The notes beneath the pieces are model-generated. The model did no database searches and was not told the DNA's origin. It saw only the letters and a program-made list of their open reading frames with translations. Shown here one piece after another: positions 55,932 through 62,316 of a DNA stretch of 64,000 bases (the first letter of the stretch is position 1; every line of letters starts with the position of its first letter). Source of the DNA: Planctomycetaceae bacterium (GTDB taxonomy: Bacteria; Planctomycetota; Phycisphaerae; Phycisphaerales; SM1A02); NCBI GenBank assembly GCA_947490615.1, contig CANLHK010000002.1, forward strand, positions 248,001-312,000, given 5' to 3'. Position numbers and translations under genes: made by a program.

Positions 55932-57737
55932 ATGCCGACCGATGCACCATCCATCGCCGCAGGCGGAATCGGAACGGACGGCCTGCTGGCCATTGGATGC
56001 GTCGCCGTCACGCTGATCGCACTGATCCGCGGGCGAATGGGCAGTGATCTCGCGATGGCAGGTGGCATTGGCCTTCTCGTCCTCACCAAGGTGCTCGCCC
56101 CCGAAGAAGCGTTCGCTGGCCTCGCGAGTCCATCGATCCTCACGATCGCTCTCCTGTTGGTCGTCTCGCAGGGAGTGATTGAGACGGGTCTCATCCAGTG
56201 GATCAGCCCGACGCTTTTTGGACGAACCTCGAGTCCAGCACTGGCGCGGCTGCGACTCATGGCGCCCGTCGCAGTGTTCTCGGCGTTCATCAACAACACG
56301 CCATTGGTGGCGATGTGCATTCCAGTCGTGCAGGACTTTTCGCGGCGTTCGAAAGTGGCGCCTGGAAAACTCTTCATCCCGCTCACCTACGCCGCGACAC
56401 TCGGCGGCGTGTGCACCTTGATCGGGACGAGCACGAACCTCGTGGTCAACGAAATGTGGGTCGGCTCGGGTCATCCCTCGTTCTCGCTGTTTGATCTCGC
56501 ACCGATTGGAATTCCTGTCGCGCTCGTTGGGATCATCTACACCGTCATCGCTGGACGCTGGCTTCTGCCTGAGAGCGGCCGTGGCGCGTTAGCCAAGGTC
56601 GATCCGCGGGCGTATTCGGCGGAGATGCGCGTCACGGGTGCACCCATCGCGGGCAACACCGTGGAAGGCGCGGCGCTGCGCGGACTCGAAGGGCTGTATC
56701 TCTCGGAGATTCAGCGCGGCGAGGAGATCATCGCACTCGTCGAGCCAACGACACGCCTTGAGCAAGGCGACCGACTCTTCTTCGTGGGCGATGTCACGAG
56801 CGTCGTGTCACTCCACAAGATGCGCGGTCTGTCGGCAGAACGCGAGCAGCTCGCCAAACTCAGCAACGAACGATACAAGCGCTTCCTCGTCGAGGTCGTC
56901 GTCTCGGATTCGAATCCTTTGCTTGGACGCACCATCCGCGAGTCGCGCTTTCGCAGCGTCTATGACGCCGTGGTCATCGCCGTAAGTCGCAACGGCGAGC
57001 GACTCACGAATGTGAAGCTCGGTTCGGTCACGCTGCGCGCGGGCGATGTCTTGCTGCTCGAGACGCAAGAAGCGTTCGTGAACGCGTACCAACAATCGCG
57101 CGACTTCCTCCTTGTGAGCAAGCTCGAAGATTCCGCGCCCGTGCGCCACGAACGCGCACCGATCGCGCTTCTCATTCTCCTCGGCGTCATTGCTACGGCG
57201 GCGTTCGAGCCGTTCGGGCTCACGATGTTCCACGCAGCGCTTGTCGGCGCCGCCTTGATGATCGCCACGCGCTGTTGCACGGGGCCACAAGCGCGCAAGG
57301 CACTCAACGCGCGCTTGATCTTCGTCATCGCAGGATCGCTCGCTCTCGGTACCGCGCTGGCTAAGACGGGCGTCGCCAAGGTCTGCGCCGATCATCTGAT
57401 CTCCGCAGGTCAAGGCAGTCCGATCCTGACCTTGGCTGCGATCTACCTCATCACCGCCTTGCTCACCGAACTGCTCTCCAACGCCACCGCCGCGGCCTTG
57501 GTCTTCCCCATCGCGATGTCCGCGGCACAGGCACAAGGGCTAGACCCGAAGTACACCGCCATCGTTGTGATGATCGCCGCCAGCGCGAGCTTTGCGACGC
57601 CGATTGGATATCAAACCAATCTCATGGTGCAGGCTCCTGGTGGCTATCGCTTCACGGACTACATGAAGATCGGTGCGCCCTTGGGGATCCTGACTGGCGC
57701 TGTCACCATGATCGTGGTGTGGATGCGCATGCCATGA
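55932..57737 (+). CDS. SLC13 family permease with two RCK/TrkA-C domains
   Basis: 601 residues. Membrane halves (about 14-215 and 410-600) flank two soluble TrkA-C domains: EGLYLSEIQRGEEIIALVEPTTRLEQGDRLFFVGD and VEVVVSDSNPLLGRTIRESRFRSVYDAVVIAVSRNGERL. SLC13 signature stretches include FSAFINNTPLVAMCIPVV, TYAATLGGVCTLIGTSTNLVVNE and, in the second half, TELLSNATAAALVFPIA and ATPIGYQTNLMV. Several bacterial and algal members with this layout transport sulfate. The next genes handle sulfate activation, so I infer sulfate uptake. It overlaps the PAP phosphatase gene. Confidence 0.9.
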   Translation: MPTDAPSIAAGGIGTDGLLAIGCVAVTLIALIRGRMGSDLAMAGGIGLLVLTKVLAPEEAFAGLASPSILTIALLLVVSQGVIETGLIQWISPTLFGRTSSPALARLRLMAPVAVFSAFINNTPLVAMCIPVVQDFSRRSKVAPGKLFIPLTYAATLGGVCTLIGTSTNLVVNEMWVGSGHPSFSLFDLAPIGIPVALVGIIYTVIAGRWLLPESGRGALAKVDPRAYSAEMRVTGAPIAGNTVEGAALRGLEGLYLSEIQRGEEIIALVEPTTRLEQGDRLFFVGDVTSVVSLHKMRGLSAEREQLAKLSNERYKRFLVEVVVSDSNPLLGRTIRESRFRSVYDAVVIAVSRNGERLTNVKLGSVTLRAGDVLLLETQEAFVNAYQQSRDFLLVSKLEDSAPVRHERAPIALLILLGVIATAAFEPFGLTMFHAALVGAALMIATRCCTGPQARKALNARLIFVIAGSLALGTALAKTGVAKVCADHLISAGQGSPILTLAAIYLITALLTELLSNATAAALVFPIAMSAAQAQGLDPKYTAIVVMIAASASFATPIGYQTNLMVQAPGGYRFTDYMKIGAPLGILTGAVTMIVVWMRMP

Positions 57738-58738
57738 GCACTCCGTTGCCTCTCCAGGACATCCTCCTTCTCGCAGTGCGACAAGCGTCGCGAGCAACAC
57801 GGTTCGTGCAGGCGGCTGCGGGAATCGATGGGATGGCCAAGGAAGATCGCTCGCCCGTCACCGTGGCGGATTGGGCGAGTCAGGCAGTCGTGGCACTGAC
57901 ACTTCGAGCGCACAGCGCGACGCACGCGATTCCACTCGTCGGTGAAGAGGACGCCTCTCTCTTGCGCAGTGCAGAATGTGCGCCGCTCCTTGAACGCGTC
58001 GTTGACGCCGTGTCCCACGCGCTGTCACGACGCGTTGAGACAACAGAGTGCCTCGACGCCATCGACGCGGGACGCGCCGCGCCCTGTGCGCGCTTCCTCA
58101 CGCTCGACCCTGTCGATGGCACCAAAGGGTTCCTACGCCGACAGCAATATGCGCTCAGTCTCGCGCTGATTCAGGATGGCGTCGTCGTGCATGGAGTGGT
58201 CGGATGTCCAAATCTCCCTGAAGCCGATGGCAACTACGACCACGCCGATCCCATTGGATCCATCGCGTGGGCGTCGCGCGGCAGCGGCGCGTGGATTGCT
58301 CAAGGTGCGACAGACGCCCACGCACACGCTCGACGCCTCGCCATCGCGCCGTGGAAGTTGGGCGATGCCGTGCGCGCCTGCGAGTCCGTAGAGAGCGCGC
58401 ATTCCAAGCAGGATCTTTCCGCGGAACTTCTGCGTGATCTTGGTGCAGCGGGCACTCCAGCGCGCCTCGACAGCCAGTGCAAGTATGTCGTTGTCGCGCG
58501 CGGTGGTGCCGATGTCTACCTGCGGCTTCCCGTGAAAGCTGAGTATCGCGAGAAGATCTGGGATCACGCAGCAGGCGCACTCGTGGCTTCTGAAGCGGGC
58601 GCGTGCGTCACCGATGTCGATGGGAAACCGCTTGATTTTGGCTGCGGACGCGAACTCCTCCACAACCGTGGAGTCATCGCAGGGCATCCGTTGATGGTGG
58701 AGCGACTCGTGACGGCCTACGCGGCGCGCGTCAAGTGA
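57734..58738 (+). CDS. 3'(2'),5'-bisphosphate nucleotidase (HAL2/CysQ-like)
   Basis: 334 residues from ATG 57734, overlapping the permease stop as ATGA. Inositol monophosphatase-fold motifs: KEDRSPVTVADWASQA, VGEEDAS, LDPVDGTKGF (metal-binding DPxDGT) and KIWDHAAGALVASEAG (WDxAAG). The long form with GFLRRQQYALSLALIQDG is typical of HAL2-type enzymes. It converts PAP, the by-product of PAPS use, into AMP and phosphate. That fits the neighbouring APS kinase and sulfate adenylyltransferase genes, and implies that PAPS is consumed. It overlaps convergent cysC by 8 bases. Confidence 0.93.
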   Translation: MSTPLPLQDILLLAVRQASRATRFVQAAAGIDGMAKEDRSPVTVADWASQAVVALTLRAHSATHAIPLVGEEDASLLRSAECAPLLERVVDAVSHALSRRVETTECLDAIDAGRAAPCARFLTLDPVDGTKGFLRRQQYALSLALIQDGVVVHGVVGCPNLPEADGNYDHADPIGSIAWASRGSGAWIAQGATDAHAHARRLAIAPWKLGDAVRACESVESAHSKQDLSAELLRDLGAAGTPARLDSQCKYVVVARGGADVYLRLPVKAEYREKIWDHAAGALVASEAGACVTDVDGKPLDFGCGRELLHNRGVIAGHPLMVERLVTAYAARVK

Positions 58739-59342
58739 TCAGCCCACGCGCACGCAACTCAGCCACAACGAGTTCCGCGCTCGCATCGATGGCCAACGAA
58801 CCACTGTCGACGACGACCTCCGCTTGCTCAGGTACTTCGTAGGGCTGGTGAATCCCTGTAAAATCGCGGATCTCTCCTGCGCGTGCCTTGCGATACAGCC
58901 CCTTGGGATCACGGGACTCCGCCACTTCGAGTGGCGCGTCGATGTAGGCCTCTAGAAACGGAAGCTTCCAGTCGTCGTGCAGCGCGCGCACCATGGCGCG
59001 ATCGACACGCGACGGACTCACGAGACTCGCGAGCACGATGATGCCCGCGTCGGCGAGGATGCGGCAGACTTCCCCTGTGCGTCGGACATTTTCGGTGCGA
59101 TCATCCGCTGAGAACCCGAGGTTTCGGTTGAGACCATGGCGCAAGTTGTCACCATCAATCCGATAGCAGAGTCGCCCACCGGCGACGAGGCGCGCTTCGA
59201 CAGCGACTGCGATCGTGCTCTTGCCAGAGCCCGAGAGGCCAGTCAGCCAGACCGTCCCGCCCCGCTGCCCAAGCAACCGCTCGCGGTCAAGCCGAGAGAC
59301 CAGACCGTTGTGCCAGACCGTGTTGGCGGACTTGTCCTGCAT
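58731..59342 (-). CDS. cysC: Adenylylsulfate (APS) kinase, stand-alone
   Basis: 203 residues. All APS kinase motifs are intact: P-loop GLSGSGKST (35-43), RIDGDNLRHGLNRNLGFS (61-78), the phosphoserine region SLVSPSRVDR (Ser109) and DPKGLYRKARAGEIRDFTGIHQPYE. It phosphorylates APS to PAPS. Its presence next to a CysNC whose kinase domain looks inactive suggests that this protein does the work. It is divergent from cysD with an 83-base gap containing a palindrome. Confidence 0.96.
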   Translation of the reverse strand: MQDKSANTVWHNGLVSRLDRERLLGQRGGTVWLTGLSGSGKSTIAVAVEARLVAGGRLCYRIDGDNLRHGLNRNLGFSADDRTENVRRTGEVCRILADAGIIVLASLVSPSRVDRAMVRALHDDWKLPFLEAYIDAPLEVAESRDPKGLYRKARAGEIRDFTGIHQPYEVPEQAEVVVDSGSLAIDASAELVVAELRARGLIT

Positions 59343-59425: not shown

Positions 59426-60352
59426 ATGGAAGAAACCCGGCTGACTCACTTCGCCACGACCCACCTCAGGCAACTCGAGGCTGAGAGCATCCAGATCTTC
59501 CGTGAGGTGGTCGCGAGCTTCGAGCGTCCCGTGATGCTCTATTCGATCGGCAAAGACTCCGCAGTCTTGCTGCACTTGGCGATGAAGGCATTCTTCCCTG
59601 CGAAGCCGCCCTTTCCGCTCCTCCATGTCGACACCGGTTGGAAGTTCCGCGACATGTACGCGCTCCGCGATGAGTATGTCGCCAAGGAACTCGGCCTGAC
59701 GCTCTTGGTGCACATGAATCCTGAGGGCGTCGCAGCAGGCATCAATCCCATCACCCATGGTTCGCGCAAGCACACCGATGTGATGAAGACGCAGGGACTC
59801 AAACAGGCGCTCGACAAGTACGGCTTCGACGCCGCCTTTGGTGGCGCGCGCCGCGACGAAGAGAAGTCGCGGGCAAAGGAGCGGGTCTTTAGTTTCCGTG
59901 ACGCGCAGCATCGCTGGGATCCGCGCAATCAGCGGCCCGAGTTGTGGAACCTCTACAACACCGAAGTCAACGCCGGCGAGTCGATCCGCGTCTTCCCGCT
60001 CTCGAACTGGACTGAGCTCGATGTCTGGCAGTACATCTGGCTCGAGAAGATTCGCATCGTGCCGCTCTACCTCGCCGCGCCGCGCCCCATCGTCTACCGA
60101 CACGGCGTGCCGATCATGGTCGATGACGATCGACTTCCACTTGAGCCAGGCGAATCGCCACAGACCAAGGTGGTGCGCTTTCGCACGCTTGGTTGCTATC
60201 CCCTCTCGGGTGCAATCGAGTCCGCGGCCGCCACGATCCCCGAGATCATTCGCGAGATGTTGAAGGCCACGCAGAGTGAGCGACAAGGACGAGTCATCGA
60301 TCACGACGCAGCGGGCAGCATGGAAGAGAAGAAGAAGGAGGGCTACTTCTGA
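59426..60352 (+). CDS. cysD: Sulfate adenylyltransferase subunit 2
   Basis: 308 residues, the CysD length. It shows the PP-loop-like [82 protein letters not shown], and the C-terminal [10 protein letters not shown]. With CysN it makes APS from ATP and sulfate. Its stop overlaps the start of cysNC (TGATG), so the two subunits are co-translated. Confidence 0.98.
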
Positions 60353-62316
60353 TGCCGCAGAATGCCCATGCTGCCGAGAACGAACTGATCGATCGGGACA
60401 TCGAGGCGTACCTCGCGCGTCACGAGCACAAGAGTCTCCTGCGGTTTCTCACCTGCGGCTCGGTCGATGACGGCAAGAGCACGCTCATCGGCCGCCTGCT
60501 TCATGACACCCACATGATCCACGAGGACACGCTCGACGCTGCGGTGCGCGACTCGCGATCCATGGGCACGCAGTCGGGCGAACTGGACCTCGCCCTCCTC
60601 GTCGACGGTCTCAAGAGCGAACGAGAACAAGGCATCACCATTGATGTCGCCTACCGCTACTTCACCACGGCAGCGCGTAAGTACATCATCGCTGACACTC
60701 CTGGACACGAGCAGTTCACCCGCAACATGGCCACAGGCGCGAGCACTTGTGATCTGGCGATTCTCCTTGTCGACGCGCGCCATGGGATCGCGATGCAGAC
60801 GCGTCGCCATGCCTACATCACGAGCTTGTTGGGCATCAAGGAGATCGTCGTCGCCATCAACAAGATGGACCTCGTTGGTTGCGCGCAGTCACGCTTTGAC
60901 GAGATCGTGCGCGAGTACGAGGCCTTCGCCACCAAGCTGCCCGCGCGCCACACCCGGTTCATTCCGATGTCGGCGCTCCACGGAGACAATGTCGTCCACA
61001 AGAGCACGGCGATGCCTTGGTACACAGGCCCGACCTTGCTTGAGCATCTCGATGGGGTCCCACTCGACGCCCAGCAGAACCGCGTGGACTTTCGCTTCCC
61101 TGTGCAGTGGGTCAATCGGCCCAACCTCGACTTCCGCGGCTTCATGGGTACGGTCGCTGGCGGTTGTGTGCGAACGGGTGACCGCGTCATGGTGCTGCCT
61201 TCACGAAAGACGAGCACGGTCCAACGCATCGTGACCTACGACGGTGATCTCACCGAGGCAACGCCGCCGCTCTCGGTCACGCTCACGCTGAAGGATGAAG
61301 TCGACTGCGCGCGAGGCGACATGCTGGTGCATCTCGGAAACGAACCGCACCAAGCGCAGGATGTGCATGCGATGGTGGTGTGGATGGACGACCAGTCGCC
61401 ACTGGTTCCCGGCAAGGAGTACTTGCTCAAGCACGGTCCGCACAAGACTCCAGCGTCGATCGTGCGCATCGCGCACCGCGTGGATGTGAACACGCTCGAA
61501 CACGCCTCGGCACCCGCACTCGCGCTCAACGACATCGGACAAGTGCAGATCCGCACCCAACGGCCGTTGGTCTACGACGCCTACAACCGCAATCGCCAGA
61601 CGGGTGCTTTCATCCTGATTGATCGGCTCACCAACGCCACCGCAGGCGCGGGGATGCTGCTTGATCCTGGAGAGGTCGAAGGGCACTGGACCGACTCGCC
61701 GCACATTGATCGTGCGCGCCCTGTCCGTTCCGCGGTCACCGCCAATGAGCGGCAGGCACGACTCGGACAGAAGCCGTTCACGCTGCTGCTTGTTGGACTT
61801 TCTGGCTCAGGAAAGGGCGAAATCGCGCGGGCGGTTGAGCGTCGACTCTTCGATCTTGGACGCCTCGCTGCGGTCGTCGATGGCATGAGTCTGCGCGCAG
61901 GCATGAGCCGCGACCTTGGCTTCTCGAAGGGCGAACGCAGCGAGAATCTGCGGCGCGGCATGGAACTCGCCAAAGCGATGAACGACGCGGGGCTCATCAC
62001 GCTCGCGGTCTTCACGGCGCCCGAAGCTTCCGTTCGGTCACGCGCCCGCGAACTCGTGGGTCGCGATCAGTTTGCGATCGTGCATGTGTCCACGCCGCTG
62101 GCTGAGTGCCGCAAGCGCGATCCCTCGGGCCTCTACCGCGATCTCACGGCGGGCAAGATCGTCGGCGTGCCTGGAGTTGACTTCGAGTACGAAGCGCCGA
62201 CCGACGCCGAGCTCACCATCCCGTTGCACGAACTCGGTCTCCCCGATGTGGCGCTGCGCACCGCTGTCGAACGGGTGATGGCGCTCCTTGAGTCGCGTCA
62301 AATCATCGTGAAGTAA
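60352..62316 (+). CDS. cysN: Sulfate adenylyltransferase subunit 1 fused to degenerate APS kinase domain (CysNC)
   Basis: 654 residues. CysN GTPase motifs are intact: GSVDDGKST (36-44), DTPGHEQ (115-121), NKMD (170-173). It regulates CysD by GTP hydrolysis. The C-terminal domain (about 474-654) aligns with APS kinase, but key residues are lost: P-loop GLSGSGKGE (482-490) lacks the Ser/Thr after Lys, the DGDN motif is DGMS (510-513), and the phosphoserine position reads TAPEAS (555-560, Ala for Ser). The fold markers GFSKGERSENLRR and DPSGLYRDL remain. I infer a pseudokinase domain, perhaps structural or APS-binding. Confidence 0.93.
   Translation: MPQNAHAAENELIDRDIEAYLARHEHKSLLRFLTCGSVDDGKSTLIGRLLHDTHMIHEDTLDAAVRDSRSMGTQSGELDLALLVDGLKSEREQGITIDVAYRYFTTAARKYIIADTPGHEQFTRNMATGASTCDLAILLVDARHGIAMQTRRHAYITSLLGIKEIVVAINKMDLVGCAQSRFDEIVREYEAFATKLPARHTRFIPMSALHGDNVVHKSTAMPWYTGPTLLEHLDGVPLDAQQNRVDFRFPVQWVNRPNLDFRGFMGTVAGGCVRTGDRVMVLPSRKTSTVQRIVTYDGDLTEATPPLSVTLTLKDEVDCARGDMLVHLGNEPHQAQDVHAMVVWMDDQSPLVPGKEYLLKHGPHKTPASIVRIAHRVDVNTLEHASAPALALNDIGQVQIRTQRPLVYDAYNRNRQTGAFILIDRLTNATAGAGMLLDPGEVEGHWTDSPHIDRARPVRSAVTANERQARLGQKPFTLLLVGLSGSGKGEIARAVERRLFDLGRLAAVVDGMSLRAGMSRDLGFSKGERSENLRRGMELAKAMNDAGLITLAVFTAPEASVRSRARELVGRDQFAIVHVSTPLAECRKRDPSGLYRDLTAGKIVGVPGVDFEYEAPTDAELTIPLHELGLPDVALRTAVERVMALLESRQIIVK

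Follow-up and report, generated by a model that had tools for sequence, protein, structure and literature searches.

The sulfate-activation cluster at the end of the window, by which we mean the whole 64,000-nucleotide stretch of planctomycete DNA that was analyzed, raises the question of what the APS kinase domain at the C terminus of CysNC is kept for. A preliminary description of this DNA had noted that the domain departs from the kinase motifs, with GKG in the P-loop, DGMS, and an Ala at the phosphoserine position in TAPEAS, and that a divergently encoded CysC of 203 residues is intact (GKST, DGDN, and SLVSPSR). The first reading was borne out by translation of the open reading frame and by alignment, and the second was confirmed as well. 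As judged from the aligned residues, loss of catalysis in the CysNC C-terminal domain is well supported. We place about even confidence in the explanation that this APS kinase is dead and has been retained to bind sulfonucleotides and regulate the CysDN ATP sulfurylase.

The genes of the cluster are listed in Table 1. The CysD stop codon (TGA) and the CysNC start codon (ATG) overlap by one base (sequence at positions 60350 to 60354). The whole CysNC protein matches the profile NF004035 (891.3 bits; cut-off, 715), its CysN part matches TIGR02034 (619.4 bits; cut-off, 336.1) and qualifies as CysN, and its Pfam matches include PF00009, PF22594, and PF01583. The last of these, over residues 475 to 623 (147.3 bits; cut-off, 21.1), places the C-terminal domain in the APS_kinase family, and TIGR00455 also recognizes it (145.4 bits; cut-off, 138.7). 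Since NF004035 and TIGR00455 both pass their cut-offs, annotation based on them would treat the window protein as a bifunctional CysN/APS kinase and give it, and probably its relatives, a kinase activity that is likely absent. At an E value of 0.001 or less, only CysNC and CysC match PF01583 in the window genome, and the motifs of this CysC are canonical (GLSGSGKSTIA, DGDNLRHG, and SLVSPSR). The PAP phosphatase gene adjoins the cluster in congeners too. The gene order that includes the transporter, likely a sulfate importer, is repeated in several relatives (for example, L033 to L037) in the locus comparison. Planctomycete MAGs make up most of the closest named contigs; two with the label Candidatus Kuenenia were taken as mislabelled. 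A plasmid search returned 1538 records, all with less than 60% identity.

Table 1. Features of the sulfate-activation cluster and of the CysNC C-terminal domain (positions in the window)
Feature	Position	Strand	Basis or remark
CitMHS/DASS-type transporter with TrkA-C domains	55932..57737	+	PF03600, PF02080
HAL2-type 3'(2'),5'-bisphosphate nucleotidase (PAP phosphatase)	57719..58738	+	TIGR01330, 283.8 bits (cut-off, 267.05)
Stand-alone CysC, all motifs intact, divergent from cysD	58731..59342	-	203 aa; TIGR00455, 226 bits (cut-off, 138.7)
CysD, ATP sulfurylase catalytic subunit	59426..60352	+	TIGR02039, 506.5 bits (cut-off, 396.6)
CysNC: CysN GTPase subunit of ATP sulfurylase plus degenerate APS kinase domain	60352..62316	+	ORF, 654 aa
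Pseudo-APS-kinase domain, unit modelled	61720..62313	+	AlphaFold2 mean pLDDT 95.2, 198 residues
Altered P-loop GLSGSGKGEIA (usual GKS/T)	61795..61827	+	Motif reading
DGMSLRAG: catalytic Asp (Mtb D480) is Met; phosphosulfate Arg (R483) kept	61879..61902	+	Alignment
VFTAPEASV: Ala at phosphoserine position	62008..62034	+	Alignment; not diagnostic of inactivity
Lid: RDPS (K562 lost) and VPG (F576, T577 lost)	62116..62193	+	Alignment

Residue numbers are those of Mtb CysC, placed on the alignment by our own mapping. In the available text of PMC4373884, Lys456 and Ser457 belong to the P-loop, Asp478 to a Mg water, Lys562 to the transition state and the 2'-OH, Arg483 and Arg497 to the phosphosulfate, and Phe492 and Phe576 to the adenine; Asp480, which lies close to the 3'-OH and bonds with the 2'-OH, is the proposed base, and mouse mutagenesis cited there made this Asp essential. 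By alignment, the window domain has lost D480 (now Met), K562 (Ser), F576 (Val), T577 (Pro), and the P-loop hydroxyl and retains K456, D478, R483, F492, R497, N500, and R503. Among the features expected of a competent kinase, D480, K562, and a Walker A GKS/T are therefore absent, and the arginine pair R483 and R497 is present. The lid changes (RDPK to RDPS at K562 and FTG to VPG at F576 and T577) had been overlooked in the preliminary description, and the start that it gave for the domain, 61798, falls inside the domain; the modelled unit begins at 61720. Sequencing error is unlikely because the sister contigs L033 and L034, with about 86% protein identity, carry GKG, DGMS, and TAPEAS identical to those of the window. 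Recent decay and assembly error were rejected, given these shared motifs and strong selection.

The sequence supports the earlier proposal of a pseudokinase with possible APS binding, through the loss of D480 and K562, the retained arginines, purifying selection, and a partner kinase present in nearly every genome, while two of the three arguments first offered for it are weak. Ala at the phosphoserine position is no sign of inactivity: 3cr8 and 23vk read APIAPY at this site, and we discarded Ala as evidence of death after finding it together with both catalytic residues in L118 to L121, L141, L143, L146 to L148, and the Chelatococcus loci L094 and L096. The GKG P-loop is a recent and local change, found among the sampled domains only in the window, L033, L034, and the distant L130 and thus, within the congeners, in L033 and L034 alone besides the window.

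AlphaFold2 modelled the domain (59 sequences) as a complete APS kinase fold with high confidence. The best structural match of this model was Arabidopsis APS kinase (4fxp; Z 28.8, rmsd 1.5, 191 aligned). In the model of full-length CysNC (pLDDT 84.3), a low-confidence stretch lies near residues 441 to 460, between the two halves. The Pfam match, the model, and the structural match agree on a C-terminal APS-kinase-like fold of the kind found in the fungal enzyme discussed below; because the fold is shared, it says nothing about activity.

Loci from relatives were sampled by their likeness to the window CysNC or picked by hand, and because they were gathered in this way, the sample is rich in the dead form and its counts are not a phylum frequency. 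The counts cover nonidentical domains with at least 110 matched residues; L190, a piece at a contig edge, was counted as fused by hand. Among 101 distinct fused CysNC domains, 30 have D480 and 71 lack it in an alignment that leans to CysC because it was fitted to a profile of CysC rows. K562 is present in all 30 domains with D480 and is changed or unaligned in 67 of the 71 without it. These 71 domains retain K456 (70 domains), R497 (67), R483 (66), and D478 (66). GKS/T is retained in 57 of them, Ala stands at the phosphoserine position in 53, and Glu replaces D480 in 10. Four domains of the dead class keep K562, three of them with Glu at D480, and these four might retain activity. The three losses named in the preliminary description are thus not fixed together in relatives; it is D480 and K562 whose loss is nearly fixed as a pair.

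Several further observations were made in these loci. Several Pirellulaceae and their relatives each encode two different dead CysNC paralogs (L051/L088, L060/L173, L062/L176, L063/L178, L064/L180, L065/L182, L070/L185, and L090/L190). One Bacteroidales contig carries, some 4 kb downstream, another copy of the dead kinase domain that is only partial (L076:12230-12694). In gammaproteobacterial bins, dead CysNC (L053, L055, and L191) is found beside active CysNC (L168, L170, and L084), which suggests gene transfer or misbinning. The congener MAG contigs L044 and L071 have CysNC spread over more than one reading frame, through either assembly error or true breaks.

In a tree of 182 kinase-domain rows, 66 of the 71 domains without D480 fell behind one branch (SH-aLRT, 99). 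The five remaining domains, much more degraded, formed a second group. This tree was built by a quick search from which nonfused rows of fewer than 150 residues and three unclassified rows were omitted and in which long rows and the motif columns were kept. The 66-row clade is mostly planctomycetotal, with one member from Fidelibacterota, one from Bacteroidota, and three from contigs binned as gammaproteobacterial. Residue counts for the clade, which exclude the aberrant L136 and the five extreme remnants, gave D480 in none of 66 by alignment, K562 in 4, T577 in 5, and F576 in 30, with R483 in all 66, R497 in 97%, Ser or Thr in the P-loop in 57, and Pro at the T577 position in 50. It had been proposed that relatives with intact motifs would point to recent decay; for D480, no clade member has the Asp. 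In five members (L052, L056, L057, L092, and L134), no lid segment was aligned.

A tree of the CysN half (100 rows; fused rows with fewer than 380 residues before the domain omitted; the branch of L071 artefactually long) needs four changes of the dead label, at least three of them forced by starred branches, and its deep branches are weak. A single origin of the 66 kinase halves is therefore likely, whereas for the whole gene the sequences do not establish one, and exchange of CysN and kinase halves or repeated loss is possible. In one genome of the same family (G020), the active CysNC L135 groups with SAR86 and there is no other APS kinase match; this active CysNC is apparently a replacement.

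Dead fused domains occur in 63 genomes, of which 62 were searched for a partner (the genome of L086 was left out). Another APS kinase domain with D480 and K562 was found in 59 of the 62. The partner is mostly a stand-alone CysC; in three cases it is the end of a Sat-type frame, a label given by location within a long frame that has no CysN match and not by a Sat model, and in four (G211, G213, G229, and G244) it is a second, active CysNC. Congener contigs were judged by their own locus. The CysC of G057 is intact, and L132 of G107 is probably a CysC in its own right that lies downstream of the dead CysNC. Fused domains beyond the first in G247, G248, and G250, and a partial match of 64 bits in G248, were left unread. 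An intact partner was not demonstrated in G060 (91% complete), G150 (99% complete; 5% contamination), or G230, which has a 74-aa CysC-like piece that is intact as far as it reaches. In G150, the only candidate was an aberrant 447-aa frame, which was rejected as an intact kinase. A strict rule of one intact partner for every dead CysNC thus does not hold (G060 and G150; G230 is incomplete). Among genomes with only active CysNC, 2 of 26 (G149 and G143) have a separate intact kinase; since most of the 26 are labelled Proteobacteria, descent confounds the contrast between dead and active forms.

The dead domain is under purifying selection by these sequence comparisons and evolves no faster than CysC. 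Across 66 pairs (the window and 11 congener contigs), median dN was 0.117 for CysN, 0.197 for the dead domain, and 0.200 for CysC, and the dead domain had changed less than CysC in 33 pairs. Between the window and L033, the dead domain has a dN of 0.082 and a dS of 0.850. Many dS values are saturated, and therefore only the close pairs, with a dN/dS of 0.07 to 0.14, are safe. The fused domain looks like an old, maintained sensor or scaffold rather than a decaying domain.

Ligand sensing is the best reading of these data because the chemistry has been lost, the phosphosulfate site has been kept, the domain is under selection, and the kinase is encoded elsewhere. PAPS (or APS) would bind in the old substrate pocket of the pseudokinase module and, through the fusion of this module to the GTPase subunit, would lower or tune APS synthesis, so that the supply of PAPS for sulfation would come under feedback control. 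In an active kinase, the Asp and the Lys touch the ribose 2'-OH, next to the 3'-OH that reacts; without them, the pocket could accommodate the 3'-phosphate of PAPS. Regulation by the fused domain is what we infer from this arrangement; counting against a PAPS or APS pocket, the window has Val in place of F576, which forms one side of the adenine sandwich.

The conserved arginines and the fold could equally serve dimerization, and the main alternative, possible though distinctly less probable than sensing, is that the domain is a scaffold or docking surface that senses no ligand. Its kept dimer surface would pair with itself in CysDN assembly or with CysC, bringing in the active kinase to receive APS. 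APS kinases do dimerize through this domain, as described in the available text of PMC13213808, and the open-dimer Gly described there falls, in our mapping, at G61 of the A1 numbering, conserved in at least 90% of the 59 sequences. The divergent placement of cysC beside cysD-cysNC in the congeners and in L047, L052, L056 to L058, and L092 is also consistent with docking. However, CysC is distant or on another contig in many other genomes, the four genomes with a second CysNC pair the dead form with an active CysNC, and a mere scaffold would need neither the phosphosulfate arginines nor the P-loop lysine.

It is improbable that the fused domain is still an APS kinase with another residue as its base. 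The Glu replacements, the four domains with K562, and the 57 with GKS/T leave some room for activity among the 71, and the curated model TIGR00455 still calls a kinase, but the window domain has lost D480, K562, T577, F576, and the P-loop hydroxyl jointly, the Asp is essential according to the mutagenesis cited in the available text of PMC4373884, and 59 of 62 genomes have another intact kinase. A domain that has gained a different chemistry or ligand, such as PAP or another nucleotide, is similarly doubtful: new conserved residues (Pro at the T577 position in 50 of 66 clade members) and the adjoining PAP phosphatase gene of the congeners would fit it, but nothing specific points to another reaction and the best structural matches are APS kinases. 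Least probable, and disfavored, is neutral decay of a once active CysNC kinase domain after CysC had assumed its role, for although five extremely degraded C-terminal remnants on CysN, a separate group, lack even the anchor motifs (L086, L087, L131, L142, and L147) and the lid is unaligned in L052, L056, and L057, the low dN/dS of close pairs, a dN like that of CysC, the breadth of the clade, and its invariant pocket residues all speak against decay.

The likely use of PAPS was examined in the window genome (G000; 96.9% complete). Seven Sulfotransfer_3 frames, the only sulfotransferase family counted, exceed the Pfam cut-off; they lie on contigs C3, C5, and C6, three of them within about 7 kb on C5. 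No NIR_SIR (sulfite reductase) match was found in this genome, and besides CysD its only PAPS_reduct match (20.5 bits) is under the cut-off. None of 15 congeners, seven of them less than 90% complete, has a full-length second PAPS_reduct match, although pieces occur in G002 (49.7 bits) and G010 (33.6 bits). On these matches, PAPS in the window genome probably serves sulfation only, with no reductive branch. In six order-level relatives that carry the dead form (G041, G044, G049, G056, G057, and G060), a further PAPS_reduct protein is present, and therefore sulfation-only use is not general in the clade; L054 carries a PAPS reductase beside its dead CysNC. A profile of six window-genome sulfotransferases found three frames in loci L033 to L152 (L053, L081, and L141), of which only L053 is a dead-CysNC locus, and Pfam scans of ten chosen neighbors detected a sulfotransferase domain in L047 and in L053. 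The proximity of sulfotransferases to dead CysNC genes is thus only suggestive.

We put forward tentatively, with somewhat less confidence than the regulatory role itself, that an old CysDN family, mostly of Planctomycetota, has its GTP-driven sulfurylase throttled or tuned by a PAPS-gated pseudokinase, that in the genus of the window this enzyme would serve sulfation only, and that bacteria would here have arrived independently at an equivalent of the fungal PAPS-sensing domain. PAPS sensing, if real, would mean that an APS kinase was convergently turned into a feedback sensor for a sulfurylase of unrelated origin, and it would open the question of how GTP-driven sulfate activation is controlled to direct study. 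The window genus is a clean system for this question, since its sulfate activation apparently serves sulfation alone. In the open-licence PMC literature, we found no report of an inactive CysNC kinase domain and no paper on planctomycete sulfation; the available text of PMC1780047 treats CysN/NodQ without mention of an inactive kinase domain.

The closest likeness among known systems is to fungi, in which ATP sulfurylase carries a dead APS kinase domain that regulates it and binds PAPS, according to the available portions of PMC3734648, PMC13213808, and PMC2275785. Like the window CysNC, the ATP sulfurylase of Penicillium chrysogenum (1i2d and 1m8p) has an APS kinase fold at its C terminus; the fungal domain is described as lacking kinase activity and binding PAPS (PMC3734648, in the part available), and 1m8p matches the window domain with a Z of 25.9 (rmsd 2.5, 186 aligned). 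The motifs of 1i2d are GKD, LGDT, APIAPY, and SDKRG; as in the window, the P-loop is altered, Ala stands at the Ser position, and the anchor Arg is kept. By our alignment reading, however, the fungal domain has D478 changed to Leu and K562 to Arg and keeps D480; it has lost other residues, and therefore the parallel does not hold residue by residue. The window protein has no homologous Sat-type sulfurylase, its partner being an EF-Tu-like CysN with no Sat among six Pfam matches. CysDN is unrelated to the fungal sulfurylase, and the resemblance is therefore one of likeness and not of membership; PAPS allostery is demonstrated in P. chrysogenum and would be expected here by analogy. Active CysNC/NodQ (4bzp) has the same order of CysN followed by APS kinase (Z 26.0, rmsd 1.4, 171 aligned, 39% identity), but in the window the catalytic Asp and Lys are missing from this domain and CysC is present as an intact gene of its own. 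Finally, the two-domain APS kinases of Entamoeba histolytica and Thiobacillus denitrificans (structures 3cr8 and, by inference, 23vk) also have one noncatalytic partner in a sulfurylase/kinase fusion, as described in the available text of PMC13213808 and, for T. denitrificans, in a reference title, although in those fusions it is the sulfurylase that is dead and the kinase that is active.
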